Shown here in pieces: positions 19,999 through 33,857 of a stretch of 38,040 bases of DNA. The stretch spans positions 1 through 38,040 of the forward strand of contig JADZEO010000051.1 of the NCBI GenBank assembly GCA_020850475.1, read 5' to 3'. Within the stretch, counting starts at the first letter, position 1; the number at the start of each line of letters is the position of its first letter. This DNA comes from Bdellovibrionales bacterium (GTDB lineage Bacteria > Bdellovibrionota > Bdellovibrionia > Bdellovibrionales > UBA1609). The notes under the pieces are model-generated. The model made no database searches, was not told the DNA's origin, and saw only the letters and a list, made by a program, of their open reading frames with translations. The translations under genes were made by a program, and so were the position numbers.

Positions 19999-21618
19999 GT
20001 GATCCGAGACAAGCGCCAACGAACGCGCTTTCGGCCAAGGTTGAAACGTTACCTCTCCGTCGGCACGACTGCACTAGTAGGAATAACGATATTACTTTTT
20101 CAAAACTGCCAGCCCAACTACCTATTAAAGGTAGCGCTGCTTGCTGCTCAGAGTGAAAACTCGGCGGCGCAAACGGTTGAAACACCGCTGGCTTCACCCT
20201 TTGCGGATGGCAAACTGCAAGTGAGTTGGCGTCAGCTACTGGCGGACGAAGACTTCCGTGTGAGGAATCAGTCGGCCTTTAGTCGGGCCTCAGACTCGCT
20301 CTTTTCTTTTGGTCAAAATTTGCCGCTCGGGCTGCAGGATCCAATTCCTTCCGAGGAGGATCTTGTGGTTGATGAAGACCGCGCCGCTTTTTTGGCGGGT
20401 CAAGAGATGGTGGTTTTGATCGATAACCATTGCCGTCGCCAGCAACAAGGGACCTCAACCTTTTCCACTGTCTTGGAAAGCCAACTCGCCGGTGTTGAGC
20501 GACCCGCCCTTTCGGTTGAAGCCTACGCCTATGAGTTTTCTGATTCGCAATCCGTCAGTCAGTTTCGCGATTGGTTGGAAAGTGATCCCTGTATCATCGG
20601 CGCCAGTGAAAACCAAGTGGCCTCGATCGCTGCTGAGTCACTTAACAATGACCCTGACTTTAGTAAACTAACCCATCTGCGAGCCATCAATTTCGTCAAC
20701 GCTCAAGATCTCTTTTACCTTTCTAGTCTTAAAGTTACTCAAGATGTCGTCATTGCCATTGGTGATACTGGGGTTGCCCACGACCATCCCGATCTCCAGA
20801 ATGTTATGTGGCGAGATGGTTCAGGAAAATTTGGTCACGATTATATCAATAACGATGACAACCCGATGGATGACCATGGTCATGGCTCGCACTGTGCTGG
20901 CTTGGCTGCGGCCCAAAACAACAACGGTATCGGCGTATCGGGTGTAATGGGCGTCCATGCTCGAATTATGGGAATCAAGGTCCTAGCCGCAAATGGCTCG
21001 GGGTATACCAACCAGATTGTAAACGGTATCAACTATGCGGCGGACAACAACGCCGACGTCCTCAACCTGTCCCTGGGTGGGGCCGGCCAAAATGCCTCTT
21101 ACCAGGATGCCATGGCGAGAGCCGTGGCCGCCGGAACTTTTGTGGCCGTGGCCGCCGGTAACGACAATACCCAAATCACCACGTCATCATTTTTCTCGCC
21201 GGCCGGATATGCCAAAGACATTCATGGGGCCATGTCAGTGGGCTCTTACGATGCCATGAACTACGCGAAGTCTTCGTTCTCTAATTACAGCACTTCTTAC
21301 GTTGAAATTGGCGCACCTGGTTCTTCTGGCACAACCAAACTTTTATCGACGGTGCCGGGCGGTGGCTATGCTTACATGCACGGGACTTCCATGGCCTCCC
21401 CTGTCCTCGCCGGAGCTGCCGCTCTTACGATTGGAATTCTTCGCACCAATGGGATCAGCTACACCCCGGCAGATATCGAAGACATTTTGTTCAACGGCTC
21501 TCCCTCGCGCTCTGGCCTCAGCACTTATTTCAAGGACGGCAAAGCGCTCGATTTGGAAAAGGTCGGCGAATACATTCAACGCGTTTACTTGTTCGGCCAA
21601 ACAGGAGGGTTTAACTGA
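19999..21618 (+). CDS. Subtilisin-like (S8) serine protease, predicted lipoprotein
   Basis: A 539-residue protease. A basic N-terminus and hydrophobic segment end in LLFQNC (residues ~32-37), a Bdellovibrio-style lipobox that departs from the usual L-x-(G/A)-C, so surface or periplasmic anchoring is likely. Residues ~125-210 look like an I9-type propeptide. The catalytic triad is complete: Asp256 in IGDTGVAHDHP, His295 in HGHGSHCAG, and Ser464 in HGTSMASPV. It begins at GTG 19999, with GGGAG about seven bases upstream. The stop overlaps the next ATG by one base, so protease and pseudo-metallopeptidase are translationally linked. Roles in prey or protein degradation are possible. Confidence 0.9.
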   Translation: MIRDKRQRTRFRPRLKRYLSVGTTALVGITILLFQNCQPNYLLKVALLAAQSENSAAQTVETPLASPFADGKLQVSWRQLLADEDFRVRNQSAFSRASDSLFSFGQNLPLGLQDPIPSEEDLVVDEDRAAFLAGQEMVVLIDNHCRRQQQGTSTFSTVLESQLAGVERPALSVEAYAYEFSDSQSVSQFRDWLESDPCIIGASENQVASIAAESLNNDPDFSKLTHLRAINFVNAQDLFYLSSLKVTQDVVIAIGDTGVAHDHPDLQNVMWRDGSGKFGHDYINNDDNPMDDHGHGSHCAGLAAAQNNNGIGVSGVMGVHARIMGIKVLAANGSGYTNQIVNGINYAADNNADVLNLSLGGAGQNASYQDAMARAVAAGTFVAVAAGNDNTQITTSSFFSPAGYAKDIHGAMSVGSYDAMNYAKSSFSNYSTSYVEIGAPGSSGTTKLLSTVPGGGYAYMHGTSMASPVLAGAAALTIGILRTNGISYTPADIEDILFNGSPSRSGLSTYFKDGKALDLEKVGEYIQRVYLFGQTGGFN

Positions 21619-22802
21619 TGAAACCAAGTAAGTTGGTTTGCTCTCCCGTCATCGCGTTGCTGCTGAGTATTGCTCTCCTGAGCGGCTGTTCATTTGAGGG
21701 CTTTAGAGCCAAGCTCTTCGGCAGCTCGAGTGTTTTAGCCTCGCGCATTCCTCCCACCGACAAGATCGATGAGAACTGCGCAACGTCACCGGCCTATTCA
21801 ATGTGTATTTTTATGAAAGACCCTGTCAGTCAGGCCCAAGAGCCCTTCGCCGACCCCAATTCTCCTCTGGTGAATGAGCGCCGGATTTTCGGAGTCAAGC
21901 TAACCGGAGTCGATGGTTCCGGGCGCCTCCAAAACAGCTCAATTGAAGTTCACAGCCTCGATGGGACGAACGTGAACATCCATGAATTAGAAAGCTACAA
22001 AACCAAGGCGATCGACGACGGCTCCAACTTTGCTGAACAGCAAATGGCCTACTACTGGGCCAACCGAACCATCGAGTACCTCGGCGCTCGCACGGGCAAG
22101 TTTTACGCCCGTAACCAACAGATCAAGATCTTTGTCGATGATCGCACCTATGGGTGGCGACCCGCGACCAAGTCCATTCATCTCAAGCGCACACAACTTT
22201 CAAAGTCCATGGCGCTGAATGGCGGTTTCATCGTCCACTTGTTAGGACAAGCAAACCTGTCGATTGCCACTAACGGCGAAATCAACAATCTCACCGGCAG
22301 TAACAAACACAAGGCCTGTGGAACTTCCAAGTACGGATGTTGCCTGGAGTGGGTTGGTTGTTCTCAAGCGATCGCCGCCGGCGCTGCCGACTACCTTGTC
22401 GCGATCATGTTTCCTGACGATCCCGGTCTCGGGGAGTTCTGGAACAATTCTCTCGATGGAGCCAAAGCGTGCACGCAGTCGCGCAACCTCAAATTCATGT
22501 CTTCAGTCACCGCCCAGGCCGCTAACCAAGTTTGCGCGGGATCGGGACAAACCGGCGAAGTTCATGCTCTCGGGAGCGTCTACGCTTCCATTTGGTGGGA
22601 AGTTCGAAACAAAGCCGAAGAAGAGCGTCCGGGCTCCAGCCGTGAAGTCGACACACTGTACATGGAGCACTTGGCGCGCCTTAGTGGCTCCGACGACTTC
22701 TTAACCGCGCTCAGCAAGATCGAAGAGCTCGACGCCGAGATGTTTGGCAGTCGGTACAGCTCGAAATTTCGCGACGAGTATCAGCGCCGCGAACTCTTTT
22801 AG
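21618..22802 (+). CDS. Lipoprotein with gluzincin (M36/thermolysin-like) fold signature but no zinc site
   Basis: A 394-residue lipoprotein with lipobox LLSGC at ~20-24. The C-terminal two-thirds follow the order seen in bacterial M36/M4-type peptidases: AYYWANRTIEYL helix, KIFVDD strand, a helix in the place of HExxH, an ADYL helix, and GEVHALGSVYASIWWEV (~315-331) near the end. At the zinc helix the expected H-E-x-G-H reads His207-Leu-Leu-Gly-Gln211. The expected E-G-F-A-D-Y reads A-G-A-A-D-Y. The catalytic Glu and two of the zinc ligands are thus absent. It is probably a non-catalytic binding or inhibitory partner of the subtilisin it overlaps. No N-terminal domain (residues 25-130) is recognised. 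Confidence 0.7.
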   Translation: MKPSKLVCSPVIALLLSIALLSGCSFEGFRAKLFGSSSVLASRIPPTDKIDENCATSPAYSMCIFMKDPVSQAQEPFADPNSPLVNERRIFGVKLTGVDGSGRLQNSSIEVHSLDGTNVNIHELESYKTKAIDDGSNFAEQQMAYYWANRTIEYLGARTGKFYARNQQIKIFVDDRTYGWRPATKSIHLKRTQLSKSMALNGGFIVHLLGQANLSIATNGEINNLTGSNKHKACGTSKYGCCLEWVGCSQAIAAGAADYLVAIMFPDDPGLGEFWNNSLDGAKACTQSRNLKFMSSVTAQAANQVCAGSGQTGEVHALGSVYASIWWEVRNKAEEERPGSSREVDTLYMEHLARLSGSDDFLTALSKIEELDAEMFGSRYSSKFRDEYQRRELF

Positions 22803-22822
22803 CGTCAACCCTTCCGCCTACT

Positions 22823-22856
22823 ATTCACCGGTGTTGGTGTGCCACCACCGGTGAAT
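22823..22856. terminator. Strong hairpin in the intergenic region after the pseudo-peptidase gene
   Basis: ATTCACCGG (22823-22831) pairs with CCGGTGAAT (22848-22856), and TGGTG (22835-22839) pairs with CACCA (22843-22847). A three-base bulge separates the two stems, and the loop is TGC. No T-tract follows. It lies 20 bases after the stop, fitting an end-of-operon structure. Confidence 0.5.
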
Positions 22857-23039
22857 TCGGGCGCAAAAGGTGGTGGGTAGACGTTAAAAACTTTGACAAC
22901 GCACTCTGATTAAACACCTGAGCTGTCCCCCGCCTCGCGTAGGCATTCGCAATGTGGCCCGATTTTGGCAATATATTAAGAGTAGGGGTGGACTGTTCCG
23001 TGGGATCCGCAGGCCAGGAAGGCCGAGGAACGGTGGGTT

Positions 23040-24764
23040 ATGATCTGCAAACTCCGCTCAGGATTGAGTTTGGTGTTTGGTATCAGCCTTGGAGTCATCT
23101 TACTCGGATGCTCAGACGTTAGAATTAAGGGTCTCGCTGAAAATCGCAGCTACTCGAGTAAATCCAATCTCTGTCTAAAACCACCTGAAAATCTCACCCG
23201 CATCAATAAGGTTTTATTTGTGGTGGACAAGTCGGGCTCCAACGAGGCGATTGGTACGCTGCCAGGAAACGACATGGATGACACGCGCCGAGCTGACAAC
23301 ATCCAAAACTTTTTTAACCTCCATCGCAACGAGGCCTTCTACCGCTGGGGCTACATCGTTTTTGGGGTCGAACTCAATCAAGCCCAAGCCTATATCAACA
23401 ACGGCACCCTCAACAGCCCCACCTTTGGGAATGCCAATCAAATGCAAGCCGCCATTGACCGCCATCGCGCCACACCCGACGACGGGTGCACTCCCTATCT
23501 TGCGGGTATCGCGCTGGCCAAGAGGGCGATCGAAGATGACTTGCGCAACTTTCCCAATGAAGACTCGGTCTACAACATCTTTTTTATGTCGGATGGCTTT
23601 CCGAACGACGCCAACTCGGCCGAAAACTGCGGCTCCACGACTCCCGTGAGTTCCTCGCCGACTGATCCGTACATCCTCGCCGTTCGCGATTTGGTGCGAG
23701 TGGCACCTGATCGAATCTTTTTTAGTACCGCCTATTATGCCTTGCCCGTGAATGATCCCGCTCGAATGGCCGCTGACGGGCTCCGTTACATGTCCGAGGC
23801 CGGCGGCGGGCGTTTTGCTGACCTCCAGGGCTCTGACACCTTAAACTTTGAAGCGCTCACGCTCGGGCCGCATCCCGAATCCTGGGTGCTGAAGCGAATG
23901 TCCGTCTATAATTTTAATGCGGCCAATTGCAGTGACGGCTCTCGCGACGCGGACTCAGACGGCGACGGACTATGCGATAAGGATGAAATCGAGTTCAATA
24001 CCAAATTTGCCAGCCGTTTAACTGGTTCTCAGCAATTTGATCCCGTCAATCGCAACTCGATCAATCCCCGATACTCGGATTTGTTTTCTTACAAATTTCA
24101 GGTTCTTCCAACAGGCGAAGGACTGCGAGCTTGTGCCGAGCCAGAGCCCGATGAAGACCATGATCTCCTCAACCTTTGCGAAGAGCGAATGTTGTTCGAC
24201 AACCAAGCCAATGGACCGACGCCTCAATGGACGGAGCAAATGCGTGAGGCCGGCGCCGGAACCGCCAATACTCTCAACCCCGACACCGACGGAGATGGCT
24301 TTCTTGATAGTATTGAGTTCTTTTCGCTCGGAGTAAAATCCACACCGGTCAATTACAACAACATATTTGATCGTTACACTGGTGGCATTACCGCTGAAAC
24401 TCTGCTCGCCGAGCAACGCCACCCGATGCGGCCGACCGAAGCGGGACCAGACACCACTGACTTCCGTGTGACGTTCAGTGGGATTAATACGGCCGGCGAA
24501 AACTGTTACAATGTGGACCTTGTTCGCCTTCCGCTCTTTGCCACCCGAGGCGTGGGCATTAATCGGGTGAGCGGCATTCCGGAGCTGGCGCACGCCGATG
24601 ATGAGAGCGTGGTCTTGCTCTACTACATCATTACTCAAGAGCGAAATCCCAACGGTAAAGGGTATCTTTTTTATTCCTACCGAAAACTCCACCGGCAGCA
24701 GGGCTGGTCAAATGGGCTGGAGCTCAATAACTTTCAGAACTTCAAGGTCCCTGAGGTGTTTTAG
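23040..24764 (+). CDS. VWA-domain lipoprotein with calcium-binding (TSP3/EF-hand-like) repeats
   Basis: A 574-residue exported protein with lipobox ILLGC (~20-24). The von Willebrand A domain (~55-270) has the metal-ion-dependent adhesion site DKSGS (DxSxS) after KVLFVV, with FFMSDG as the later MIDAS strand. After it come Asp-rich loops of the thrombospondin type 3/EF-hand kind: DADSDGDGLCDKDE (~302-315) and NPDTDGDGFLD (~418-428), with a degenerate DEDHD between. The rest is unrecognised. Calcium-stabilised adhesion or binding at the cell surface is the inference. It is separated by a 237-base gap from the protease pair and may have its own promoter. A weak GGTGGG lies before the ATG. Confidence 0.82.
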   Translation: MICKLRSGLSLVFGISLGVILLGCSDVRIKGLAENRSYSSKSNLCLKPPENLTRINKVLFVVDKSGSNEAIGTLPGNDMDDTRRADNIQNFFNLHRNEAFYRWGYIVFGVELNQAQAYINNGTLNSPTFGNANQMQAAIDRHRATPDDGCTPYLAGIALAKRAIEDDLRNFPNEDSVYNIFFMSDGFPNDANSAENCGSTTPVSSSPTDPYILAVRDLVRVAPDRIFFSTAYYALPVNDPARMAADGLRYMSEAGGGRFADLQGSDTLNFEALTLGPHPESWVLKRMSVYNFNAANCSDGSRDADSDGDGLCDKDEIEFNTKFASRLTGSQQFDPVNRNSINPRYSDLFSYKFQVLPTGEGLRACAEPEPDEDHDLLNLCEERMLFDNQANGPTPQWTEQMREAGAGTANTLNPDTDGDGFLDSIEFFSLGVKSTPVNYNNIFDRYTGGITAETLLAEQRHPMRPTEAGPDTTDFRVTFSGINTAGENCYNVDLVRLPLFATRGVGINRVSGIPELAHADDESVVLLYYIITQERNPNGKGYLFYSYRKLHRQQGWSNGLELNNFQNFKVPEVF

Positions 24765-26502: not shown

Positions 26503-27264
26503 ATGAATCAACTTAAGACCTATATCCGCAAACACTTCTTACCGGAAACTCTACCAAAGGCGAGTGAGCGTGGCTCGTGGCTGAGCTTGCCGTTGATCGC
26601 CTTCTTGCTGTTGGTTTACGAGTACTTCGGCTGGCAGATGCCTTTTATGAGGTTGTCTCTGCAAGTCTCTTGGCTATCTAACTTTCCACCCAACAGTCTG
26701 AAGTATATCGCGCAAGCCTATACCTCCACGAGCTTTGTAATATTGTTCGTGCTGATCCCGTTGATTTTTTCGCGCCTCTTTCCAGTGGACGGACCCAATC
26801 CGTTTTCCTTTCGCCTGGAGCTATTCAAACAATTTATTCCCTCTTACTTGCCCCTGATTGTGTTGATGACTCCGGTGTTGTGGGTTGCCGCCGGCCGTCC
26901 GGACTTCAATCGGTTTTATCCACTTTACGAACCGGAGACTCTTCATCACTTGCTCGCCTATGAGACCATTTATATGGTCCAATTTGTCGCCATCGAATAT
27001 TTCTTTCGAGGTTTTATGCTGTTCCGGATGGAGCGCGCAGCTCCGGGCTATGGCGTGTGGGTCATGCTGATTCCCTATGCCCTCGTTCACATTCACAAGC
27101 CCTTCCCCGAGGCGGTCGCTTCTATTTTTGCGGGAATTGTTTTGGGTTTTCTTGCCCTTAAAAGTCGCTCAATTTGGCCCGGCGTACTGGTCCACTGTTA
27201 TGTTGCTCTCTCGACGGATTTGTTTTCACTGATTCGGTCAGGGCGCTTTTCAGTCTTGTTCTGA
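26503..27264 (+). CDS. CPBP-family (Abi/Rce1-like) intramembrane protein
   Basis: A 253-residue protein with about seven membrane spans. The CPBP domain (~150-240) has EYFFRGFML, the PYALVHI histidine and a later GVLVHCYVAL histidine. In the EExxxR motif the second Glu and the Arg are present, but the first Glu is Ile. This E-x-F-F-R-G form looks like a recognised sub-group. Founders of the family are CAAX prenyl endopeptidases and bacteriocin self-immunity proteins, and bacterial members are presumed glutamic intramembrane proteases. Activity is less sure without the first Glu. It has a promoter very close to the ATG. Its 3' end overlaps the next convergent gene by 15 bases. Confidence 0.84.
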   Translation: MNQLKTYIRKHFLPETLPKASERGSWLSLPLIAFLLLVYEYFGWQMPFMRLSLQVSWLSNFPPNSLKYIAQAYTSTSFVILFVLIPLIFSRLFPVDGPNPFSFRLELFKQFIPSYLPLIVLMTPVLWVAAGRPDFNRFYPLYEPETLHHLLAYETIYMVQFVAIEYFFRGFMLFRMERAAPGYGVWVMLIPYALVHIHKPFPEAVASIFAGIVLGFLALKSRSIWPGVLVHCYVALSTDLFSLIRSGRFSVLF

Positions 27265-28761
27265 CTGAGCCGGCAGACGAACCGTGCCTTGAGCCCTAAC
27301 AGGCTTCGGACTCTTGTTCGGCGAACGCTCCACCTTTGCTTCTTGATTTGGCGTCCCCGGCTGAGGCCGGCACATCCGCACGACACTTGAAGTGCTTTGT
27401 ATTCCACCCTTAAGGTAATGAACAAAGCTGCCGTCGATATAGTGAAGATCCAATCCCAAAGATTTTAATTTCCTTTCAACATCATCATGAAAGGTGGGCA
27501 AGATCTGTCGAGGCACAACCAACAAAGGACCTACCGGAATTGAGTTGACGGGATTGGGATTGAGATTCACCGCATGATCATCCCATTGACCATATTTTGC
27601 TTTGATGCGTTCCGGAGCAAAAACCAGCGGCAGCGGCACCGTCTTAATTTCGGCACAGTTGGTGCGCTTTTTAACTTCTTCAGTAATGGCCGTCAGGCCC
27701 TCGTCGATAATTTGGGCATAGGTCTCATTCGCCTTGAGGAGTTCTTCGCAAAGTTTGCGCGTCTTAGCGGGTGCCGACGCCACTTTATCTTGAGCGATAA
27801 GCTCCATGCATGGAGAAAAATCATCGCGTTGAACCACTGGGATTGCATCTTTTCCCTCGGGAATGGGCGGACTGATTTGAAATTCACCACTTCCGGATTT
27901 ACTTGCTTTAATCAATTCCAGCGCCAACCGAGGCGCGGCGTGGGTAATGGCAAAATCACATTGGTCGGCCGGCTGGGCCCTCACCCTCAATACGCCAAAA
28001 ATCTCGTTCACCATTCCCGGGTCGCCCCAGGCCGTATTCACCGTCATCAAATCTTGAGCGAGATTAACATCAAGAACCTTTTGCGTCGTCGCCGTCAGGT
28101 TGTTCCCCGCAACGATGAGGTTGCCGGGGAAGGGGGCAATATTGCCGCCAAAGTCGCCGTGTCCCGGATAATCTTTGCTCTTCGGCAGCGACTCTTGAGC
28201 GACGTAACCCATTTGGCAACTCAGCGCCACCGCTGCCGGAGTGGAATCCTCGTCGCGGCTCACATGAGGCAGATCAAAAATCGTCCCGCGACCTGTGCTG
28301 TTGGAAACTGCTACTTCGAAGTAGTCTTGGACCCATAAGGCCTCGTCGGTCGGAACTGGAATAAACCGAACAAAGTCGGCATAGGGCGGCTCAAGAAATT
28401 TATTAAACAATCGATAGACTTCCGAATTTTCCAGCCGCGGTACTAAAATCGCGACCTGTGGCCGACTCTCATCTTCGACCAACTTTTCGATGAGTTCCCG
28501 CAAAAACTGGACGTGCGATGGCTGAGGCGAATATCCCAGAAAAATCAGTCCCGGAGGAAAGGTCGGCGGCAGCAGGACTAAGCCCTCACTGCCCGGACAA
28601 ACGGGAACCTTCTCACTGCGCCACTTGGATTGGAAAAAGTAGTTTCGGCATCCAGCAAAAGCTTCGTCATATTCTGAATCGGTCGCAACGTTATTCTTGC
28701 CAATAAGACTACAGGCTGACAGCGAAACCGCACAACTAAGAGCTAAAATTGACTTCCGCAA
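27250..28761 (-). CDS. Lipoprotein homologous to protein-arginine deiminase, catalytic residues lost
   Basis: A 503-residue lipoprotein (lipobox LSAC at 14-17). Residues ~60-460 follow the catalytic domain of vertebrate protein-arginine deiminases in order. WVQD (Asp146) matches the WIQDEMEIGY aspartate. GDFGGNIAPFPG matches the GNLEVSPP loop. PGMVNEIF occupies the place of VGHVDEFL. LGLDLHYID...GGIQSTSS occupies the place of LGLHCTFIDD...GEVHCGTN. On this alignment the family's His is Met250, its second Asp is Asn252 and its nucleophile Cys is Ser456 (codon AGC where TGC encodes Cys). Only the first Asp is kept, so it cannot use PAD chemistry. It may bind arginine-rich protein. A basic Pro/Lys-rich tail of ~45 residues follows. 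The ribosome site is GGAGG. Confidence 0.8.
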   Translation of the reverse strand: MRKSILALSCAVSLSACSLIGKNNVATDSEYDEAFAGCRNYFFQSKWRSEKVPVCPGSEGLVLLPPTFPPGLIFLGYSPQPSHVQFLRELIEKLVEDESRPQVAILVPRLENSEVYRLFNKFLEPPYADFVRFIPVPTDEALWVQDYFEVAVSNSTGRGTIFDLPHVSRDEDSTPAAVALSCQMGYVAQESLPKSKDYPGHGDFGGNIAPFPGNLIVAGNNLTATTQKVLDVNLAQDLMTVNTAWGDPGMVNEIFGVLRVRAQPADQCDFAITHAAPRLALELIKASKSGSGEFQISPPIPEGKDAIPVVQRDDFSPCMELIAQDKVASAPAKTRKLCEELLKANETYAQIIDEGLTAITEEVKKRTNCAEIKTVPLPLVFAPERIKAKYGQWDDHAVNLNPNPVNSIPVGPLLVVPRQILPTFHDDVERKLKSLGLDLHYIDGSFVHYLKGGIQSTSSVVRMCRPQPGTPNQEAKVERSPNKSPKPVRAQGTVRLPAQSEQD

Positions 28762-28813
28762 ATTGCCTCCACCTCAATCAAAAATTTACAATGTCTTAAG
28801 GATCGGATCAACC

Positions 28814-31852: not shown

Positions 31853-32907
31853 CGATCAATATTGATCCCCACTGTGATTCTCTTGTGGCTAAGACTTCGT
31901 TGCCCCAGGAGCTCGGGTTCGGCAAATTTTTTGCGCCGCTGATGGTGACCGCGCAATACCGAGACCAAAAATGGCAGAACTTAACTCTCGGGCCATACGC
32001 TCCTCTCGCCCTCGATCCGGCCACGATGGTTTTCCATTATGGACAAAGTATTTTCGAAGGTCTAAAGGCCTATCGCAATCGCTCTTCGCTTCATTTGTTT
32101 CGGGTCATGGACCATGCTCGACGCTTTAACCTTTCCGCCAAGCGAATGGCCATGCCCGTCTTGCCGGAAGAAATGTTCGCCGAAGGGGCCGTGGCTTTTT
32201 GTCGCGCGGTCGCGCCCCTGGTTCCTTCTGATGACGTGTCAAACCTCTACTTGCGACCCTTCATGTTTGCCGATCAAGTGGGACTTGGCGTTCGCCCCTC
32301 CGAATCCTACCTCTTTTTGATTATTGGAACTCCCTCTGGAAAATATTTTGCCGACGAAGCGGTCAAGGTGATGATCGAGCGCAGTTATAGCCGGGCTGCT
32401 TCCGGTGGAGGCACCGGGGCCGTTAAGACGGGAGGAAACTACGCCGCCAGCCTCTTGAGTGACCGTCGAGCGAAGACCGCCGGCTTCCATCAAACACTTT
32501 GGCTCGACTCGTCCACCCGCAAGAATGTCGAAGAGCTCACGGGCATGAATATCTTTTTTGTGCGCAACAATTCGCTGGTAACTCCTCGGTTGAACAATTC
32601 AATTCTTCCCGGAGTGACTCGCGATACAATTTTTGTGTTAGCCAAAGAGCTCAATATTCCGGTGGTTGAAGAAGTCGTGCCGATCGACAACATTTTGCGG
32701 GACATCAAGGGGCAAACTTGTACCGAGTGCTTTGTCTGCGGAACAGCCGCGGGAATCACTCCCGTCGCTTTGCTGGGGGAACCGGGCCTGCCTCCCTACA
32801 CCCTCGCCGCAAGCCCTGGTCCAATTACCCAAAAACTTGCCAAAGCTCTGCACGAAACGCAACGAGGACAGCGCCCCTCTCCAGCGGAGTGGATTGTTCG
32901 CGCATGA
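31849..32907 (+). CDS. ilvE: Branched-chain amino-acid aminotransferase
   Basis: A 352-residue cytoplasmic PLP enzyme of fold type IV. It interconverts Leu/Ile/Val with their 2-oxo acids using glutamate/2-oxoglutarate. The conserved HYGQSIFEGLKAYR, the PLP lysine Lys193 in GAVKTGGNYAASL, and the catalytic-face VEELTGMNIFFV and CTECFVCGTAAGITPV are all seen. The length (352) is right for the longer (type II, BCAT) form. It starts four bases before the stop of the class V aminotransferase and ends four bases into the astacin ATG, so three proteins are made from one message. Confidence 0.92.
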   Translation: MTINIDPHCDSLVAKTSLPQELGFGKFFAPLMVTAQYRDQKWQNLTLGPYAPLALDPATMVFHYGQSIFEGLKAYRNRSSLHLFRVMDHARRFNLSAKRMAMPVLPEEMFAEGAVAFCRAVAPLVPSDDVSNLYLRPFMFADQVGLGVRPSESYLFLIIGTPSGKYFADEAVKVMIERSYSRAASGGGTGAVKTGGNYAASLLSDRRAKTAGFHQTLWLDSSTRKNVEELTGMNIFFVRNNSLVTPRLNNSILPGVTRDTIFVLAKELNIPVVEEVVPIDNILRDIKGQTCTECFVCGTAAGITPVALLGEPGLPPYTLAASPGPITQKLAKALHETQRGQRPSPAEWIVRA

Positions 32908-33857
32908 AGCTTCCCGGGCGGGTAAGCATCGCTGTTGCCGTGGGCGCCTCTCTTTACTGGCTCTGGAGTCGCGCAACGCTTTCTCGGGTCGAGGCGCCTC
33001 CGCCCCCAACTGCTGCCTCTGCCGAATCCACGCCTGTCGTTGCCGCCAAATCACCGCAGGTTTCGCGCAGCTCAACACCGTCTCCGCTTCCTCCCTCAGC
33101 CGCTCCCCGTCCCATTGCCGTCGAGGCCACGCCCGTTGAGTCTTCAGTGCGAACCTGGGCTCAAGCTCAGACTCGCATTCCCTTTCGAATCGACAACAAC
33201 TGGGCCATCGCCTACGGTGATGTGTTATTAGGAACCGTCACCGCACCAGCCAACGTCACCTCTGGAACTCATGAGCCCGAACGCCCCCGGCTTTGGGAGA
33301 GTCCCGTAATTCCCTATGCCATTCATCGCGAACTGACCAATCCTGCCCGAGTTGAGGCGGCAATAAGGTATTTTAACGAAAACACTCCTATTCAGTTTGT
33401 GCCCCTGGAAGCGGAAGGCGAAGACGCCATTGTTTTTGTTCCCGATGCTAAAAATTGTGCGTCCTATGTCGGTCGCATCGGGGGACCTCAGCCCATTATG
33501 GTAGCTGATCGCTGTGGACGTCAGGAACTCATCCATGAGTTGATGCACGCCTTGGGCTTTGTCCACGAGCACTCACGACTGGACCGCGATCAGTTTATCG
33601 AGATCGTCTGGGACAACATTGATTCGCAATACTGGCCACAGTTTGCAATGGTGCCCGAACTGATGGTTCTCGATTACCAAGGGCGGACCTTCGATTTTGA
33701 TTCTTCCTCGGCAATGCTGTATCCCCCGTCGGCCTTTCCGCGCCAACCGGGTTTGGTTACCGTGCAGGGCAAGGCCGGAACTCGCGTAAGCCCAATAACT
33801 TCGGGCCTCAGTGCCAGCGATCGCGAACGACTCAATGTGTGGTATGGCAGAAATTGA
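32904..33857 (+). CDS. Astacin-like (M12A) zinc metallopeptidase, exported
   Basis: A 317-residue exported metallopeptidase. A short N-terminal signal anchor (~5-22) is followed by a Pro/Ser/Ala-rich linker (~30-75). The astacin catalytic domain (~125-317) has the full zinc signature HELMHALGFVHEHSRLDRD (His211, Glu212, His215, His221). The Met-turn reads SAMLYPPSAF where most family members have S-x-M-H-Y: the Met and Tyr are kept and the His is replaced by Leu. The zinc site is intact, so it should cut proteins outside the cytoplasm. The ATG at 32904 lies in the ilvE stop (ATGA). Confidence 0.9.
   Translation: MKLPGRVSIAVAVGASLYWLWSRATLSRVEAPPPPTAASAESTPVVAAKSPQVSRSSTPSPLPPSAAPRPIAVEATPVESSVRTWAQAQTRIPFRIDNNWAIAYGDVLLGTVTAPANVTSGTHEPERPRLWESPVIPYAIHRELTNPARVEAAIRYFNENTPIQFVPLEAEGEDAIVFVPDAKNCASYVGRIGGPQPIMVADRCGRQELIHELMHALGFVHEHSRLDRDQFIEIVWDNIDSQYWPQFAMVPELMVLDYQGRTFDFDSSSAMLYPPSAFPRQPGLVTVQGKAGTRVSPITSGLSASDRERLNVWYGRN

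Follow-up and report, generated by a model that had tools for sequence, protein, structure and literature searches.

Protein-arginine deiminases (PADs) work by thiouronium chemistry and form, together with the Porphyromonas enzyme PPAD and the agmatine deiminase family (PF04371), one guanidine-modifying superfamily. Among inactive PADs, mammalian PAD6 (PADI6) is the well-studied one, and a bacterial example would be an independent case for the PAD fold without catalysis. In PAD6, the position of Cys645 of PAD4 is occupied by Ala676 (PMC11067741), and the calcium-1 glutamates are replaced, E411 of PAD4 corresponding to Met420, with both Asp residues and the His retained (PMC11402830). According to a survey from 2021, which took in representative PADs of fungi, actinobacteria, cyanobacteria and animals, all catalytic residues are conserved among the PADI homologues (PMC8826395). 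No papers on bacterial pseudo-PADs or on PADs of Bdellovibrionota were found in the library searched, in which subscription journals are few.

The window analysed here, a stretch of 38,040 nucleotides from a Bdellovibrionales bacterium (contig JADZEO010000051.1), contains an ORF at positions 27250..28761 of the minus strand (503 aa, stop codon included in the coordinates) which, according to coding statistics and a Pfam PAD match, encodes a putative pseudo-PAD lipoprotein, referred to below as the window protein. The ORF starts with TTG, has a Shine-Dalgarno-like sequence, GAGGTGGAGG, just 5' of this codon (28766..28775, minus strand), and stays open over 1,509 bases (503 codons). Its codon statistics are close to those of the neighbouring genes, and the alternative frames score clearly lower. 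Re-reading of the ORF (Asp146 GAC, Met250 ATG, Asn252 AAC, Ser456 AGC) showed both the coordinates and the residue numbers 146, 250, 252 and 456 of the initial annotation to be correct. The source assembly is fragmented (175 contigs), and the genus is represented by one genome in the collections searched, the best relative having ∼35% identity; no close homologue was found there, and the inactive state is therefore known from a single genome.

The N-terminus carries a signal peptide (28711..28761, minus strand) with the lipobox LSAC at residues 14-17 of MRKSILALSCAVSLSAC and Cys17 as the residue to be lipidated, as judged by a regular expression and a hydropathy check. This motif agrees with the previous designation of the product as a bacterial lipoprotein, and the pseudo-PAD is probably lipid-anchored in the envelope. 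At the other end, a Pro/Lys-rich C-terminal tail (residues 467-503; 27253..27363, minus strand) extends 37 residues past the usual CRP end of the family. Within the subfamily only the window protein has such a tail, and its low model confidence is typical of disordered tails.

Assignment to the PAD family is supported by both profile and structure. PF03068 (PAD) was matched with 33.2 bits against a curated cut-off of 25 and was the sole Pfam family found at E values up to 1, neither PF04371 (PAD_porph) nor PF02274 (ADI) being matched; the NCBIfam and PHROGs searches gave no match. An AlphaFold model obtained from 26 aligned sequences (mean pLDDT 83, pTM 0.83) had human PAD4, PAD3, PAD1 and PAD2 as its best matches among solved structures, the Foldseek match to PAD4 reaching an E value of 5e-20. 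According to VIA-align (Z 36.2, 332 aligned residues), model residues 59-468 superimpose on residues 294-660 of human PAD4, that is, on the whole catalytic domain. The predicted PAD catalytic-domain fold thus corresponds to positions 27358..28587 of the minus strand, and the first 58 and the last 35 residues lie outside it. A search of the single sequence against solved structures returned chance matches only, and the family profile retrieved PAD1-4 as well as PAD6 by sequence. The earlier claim of a PAD fold is thereby borne out, and on profile and model the window protein is a member of PF03068 by homology. Like the active PAD1-4, it has the catalytic fold from end to end, the WxQD and GN blocks and the conserved Asn406; unlike them, it has three of the four catalytic residues replaced and lacks the space for N-terminal immunoglobulin-like domains. 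In contrast to the Porphyromonas PPAD/agmatine deiminase family, it has no match to PF04371, and that family is absent from the source genome.

In the alignment with PAD4, Asp146, Met250, Asn252 and Ser456 are equivalent to D350, H471, D473 and C645, respectively. The WVQD block (28324..28335, minus strand) retains Trp143 and the catalytic Asp146 (W347 and D350 of PAD4). Meanwhile Met250-Val-Asn252 (28006..28014, minus strand) replaces the catalytic His-x-Asp (H471 and D473), and Gln455-Ser456 (27394..27399, minus strand) replaces the His-Cys pair at the nucleophile position (H644 and C645). The catalytic Asp-His-Asp-Cys set is therefore incomplete, Asp146 alone remaining, and the alignment with PAD4 and the relatives upholds the initial annotation in its statement that the catalytic His, Asp and Cys are lost and the first Asp is kept. 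The aligned equivalents of the PAD4 calcium-1 ligands Q349, E353 and E411 would be Gln145 and Glu149, both retained, and Ala209 (28135..28137, minus strand), which stands in place of the Glu (PMC11402830); some of the relatives lack an equivalent of E353. Position 209 is Glu in 51 and Asp in 4 of 60 relatives. Trp143, Gln145, Glu149 and Asn406 are all retained in the window protein, and its pocket, as deduced from the alignment, is now less acidic, two acidic side chains (at positions 252 and 209) being gone. The description of the chain given in the initial annotation stands as regards residues and fold but omitted H455Q, E209A, L246G and the 37-residue C-terminal tail.

The changes are concentrated at the active site. 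Of the 23 columns in which 24 or all of 25 relatives agree, taken here as near-invariant, 19 are unchanged in the window protein, the four altered ones being H250, D252, H455 and C456. Leave-one-out comparison of the subfamily members gave at most one such difference each, namely a gap in L007. All four altered columns, as well as D146, are invariant in the full-length relatives compared (60/60). Each of the eight mature cysteines (38, 55, 182, 268, 318, 338, 369 and 464) is matched by a cysteine in most members of the active-looking subfamily; there is no new cysteine and none that takes the place of the nucleophile.

Comparison with PAD6 reveals both likeness and difference. Both proteins have the PAD catalytic fold (Z 28.8-29.5 for the model against PAD6 structures), a changed nucleophile and a lost equivalent of E411 (Ala209 here, Met420 in PAD6). 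However, PAD6 has flanking cysteines and keeps both Asp residues and the His, whereas the window protein has lost the His, one Asp and the Cys and has no replacement cysteine, so that the PAD6 pattern (Cys lost, His and both Asp residues retained) is not what is found here. In addition, PAD6 is a multi-domain protein of oocyte cytoplasmic lattices, whereas the window protein is a single-domain bacterial lipoprotein. Since the active-looking neighbours of the window protein in the tree are bacterial, the loss is most simply taken as independent of PAD6. Inactive PADs being already known from mammals, the novelty is a deeper, independent catalytic loss in a bacterial lipoprotein.

The family itself is fairly widespread. 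Within the class, 25 of 144 genomes have PAD-like proteins, and within the phylum Bdellovibrionota, 75 of 369 have PAD-like matches; one genome with a matching contig (G136) falls in the family of the source genome. An alignment-based scan of genome contigs yielded 34 named loci from bacteria of several phyla, a scan with the single protein gave no match in genome contigs, and no relatives were found in the viral contigs. Among the 84 full-length relatives from Bdellovibrionota and other phyla in which all four catalytic columns could be aligned, 83 retain Asp-His-Asp-Cys. The initial annotation had asked if Cys is missing from the whole family; the answer is no, and the catalytic loss, judging by these alignments, is secondary and not a family-wide trait. 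Exported PAD-like proteins of Bdellovibrionota such as L032-L035, L039 and L040 belong to the same subfamily, have the same cysteines and are exported, but retain Asp-His-Asp-Cys and lack the 37-residue tail. Motif and hydropathy analysis indicates export of the relatives by a lipobox, a single membrane anchor or a signal peptide. Two groups of loci, L032-L042 and L043-L059, form an extensive collection of exported, active-looking PAD-like proteins of Bdellovibrionota that seems to be undescribed and shows these three anchoring modes, and it is to this large unstudied family that the pseudo-PAD points. No conserved gene neighbourhood was found across the eleven subfamily loci, except at two near-identical ones. 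PAD-like fragments spread over several short frames in one genome (L120 and L132, genome G042) may be true pseudogenes or assembly breaks, unlike the gene of the window protein, which is intact.

In a tree built without the catalytic columns, the window protein is nested inside active-looking sequences, in sets with 91-94% bootstrap, the nodes nearest to it not being strongly supported. Its end branch (1.36-1.37) is comparable to those of its neighbours (1.1-1.4). The sole exception among the 84 relatives is L130 (L130:418-1935, plus strand, contig C5 of genome G040), which alignment shows to be a second, more eroded exported PAD-like protein with all four catalytic residues lost. It shares with the window protein the retained GGN loop and the ASP and TN motifs along with the loss of catalytic positions, but, in contrast to it, has also lost the first Asp, has an end branch of 3.51 and falls below the Pfam threshold, giving no Pfam match. 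No close relative of L130 was found in the phylum. A single shared loss, with the window protein and L130 forming one clade, was rejected by the AU test (p 0.009), the very long branch of L130 making its placement unsure.

Nested placement, an ordinary branch, retained cysteines and near-invariant columns altered only in the active site fit a maintained pseudoenzyme and not a decaying gene or an error. The explanation we regard as probable is that the window protein is an intact lipid-anchored protein of PAD fold which now acts as a non-catalytic binding or structural protein of the envelope. It would descend from an exported, active-looking PAD-like enzyme of Bdellovibrionota. Because the nucleophilic Cys, the general acid/base His and one substrate-binding Asp are gone, the window protein would be incapable of the deiminase reaction. 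The rigid, probably disulfide-bonded scaffold would have been retained by selection, and the protein would serve a non-catalytic envelope role, binding or structural, through the former substrate cleft or a different surface. Dead enzymes that retain their folds usually indicate a binding role, and since scaffold and cysteines are kept and a lipid anchor is probable, binding or structure in the envelope appears the most likely use; we infer that both a function and an envelope role persist. Regulation of an active homologue in its own genome was also considered and rejected: a second PAD, PAD_porph or ADI homologue was sought in the source genome and none was found, which makes such a role there unlikely. 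With somewhat less than even confidence, it may further be suggested that Bdellovibrionota have more than once turned an exported PAD-like enzyme into a partner-binding, non-catalytic envelope protein, convergent with PAD6 in oocytes.

The initial annotation had proposed a receptor or decoy, the dead cleft binding the arginine side chains of an arginine-rich protein or peptide while displayed on the cell by the lipid anchor; this is a special case of the binding role favoured above. Arginine binding by the cleft is possible, since Trp143, Asp146 and Asn406, its conserved residues, remain, and PAD4 inactivated at Cys645 alone still binds substrate in crystals (C645A complexes, PMC11402830). However, the cleft of the window protein has lost both the second substrate Asp and the Glu of calcium-1, may not become ordered with calcium, and is less acidic after the loss of Asp252 and Glu209, a mild argument against tight binding of arginine. 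The active-looking relatives may or may not act on protein arginine, which makes the ancestral ligand uncertain too. The proposal is therefore not supported and seems rather unlikely.

That the gene died recently and is heading for decay, or is carried along as a hitchhiking relic, would accord with the occurrence of the inactive form in one genome only and with the family being dispensable, as its presence in about a fifth of the phylum genomes implies. Yet the open frame, the ribosome-binding site, the normal codon use and the ordinary branch length all argue against it. The altered codons 209, 250, 252, 455 and 456 require at least eight base changes in 15 bases, all three codon bases having changed in His250 to Met, and the frame has nevertheless remained open with the structural invariants retained, which argues against long neutral decay and sequencing error alike. 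In simulations of neutral drift, a stop-free frame was left in 0.7% of runs at 0.1 substitutions per site and in 0/300 at 0.2. Decay is accordingly considered improbable.

The clustering of the changes and the fully retained scaffold would also suit a refunctionalised enzyme, in which the altered cleft (Ser456, Gln455, Asn252, Met250 and perhaps a new His) catalyses another reaction. The aligned positions of H166, H201, H274 and H396 carry no His in the 11-member subfamily (for His166, 0/11), and His274 is found in 0/83 relatives. On the other hand, no His is known to be so placed as to activate Ser456, and Met at the His position is inert, so that a new catalytic activity is highly doubtful. 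An assembly or sequencing error making an active enzyme appear dead, for which the fragmented assembly might speak, has a practically negligible chance, as six sites in three separate stretches (E209A, L246G, H250M, D252N, H455Q, C456S) are affected with the frame undisturbed, and His to Met requires three base changes.

As regards the genomic surroundings, the pseudo-PAD gene may form an operon with the upstream sugar-phosphate isomerase gene, which lies 52 bases away; the promoter and terminator scans gave results near chance. The 3' end of the ORF overlaps a convergent gene for a CPBP/Rce1-like protease by ∼15 bases. A run of exported-looking proteins is encoded at 19999-24764. It includes a subtilase-like protein (19999) and two lipoproteins without a Pfam match, one at 21618 and a large one at 23040; the latter contains the motif DKSGS, which resembles the one in von Willebrand A domains. 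Finally, an astacin-family metalloprotease is encoded at 32718-33857, in the vicinity of the pseudo-PAD, and is probably exported as well.
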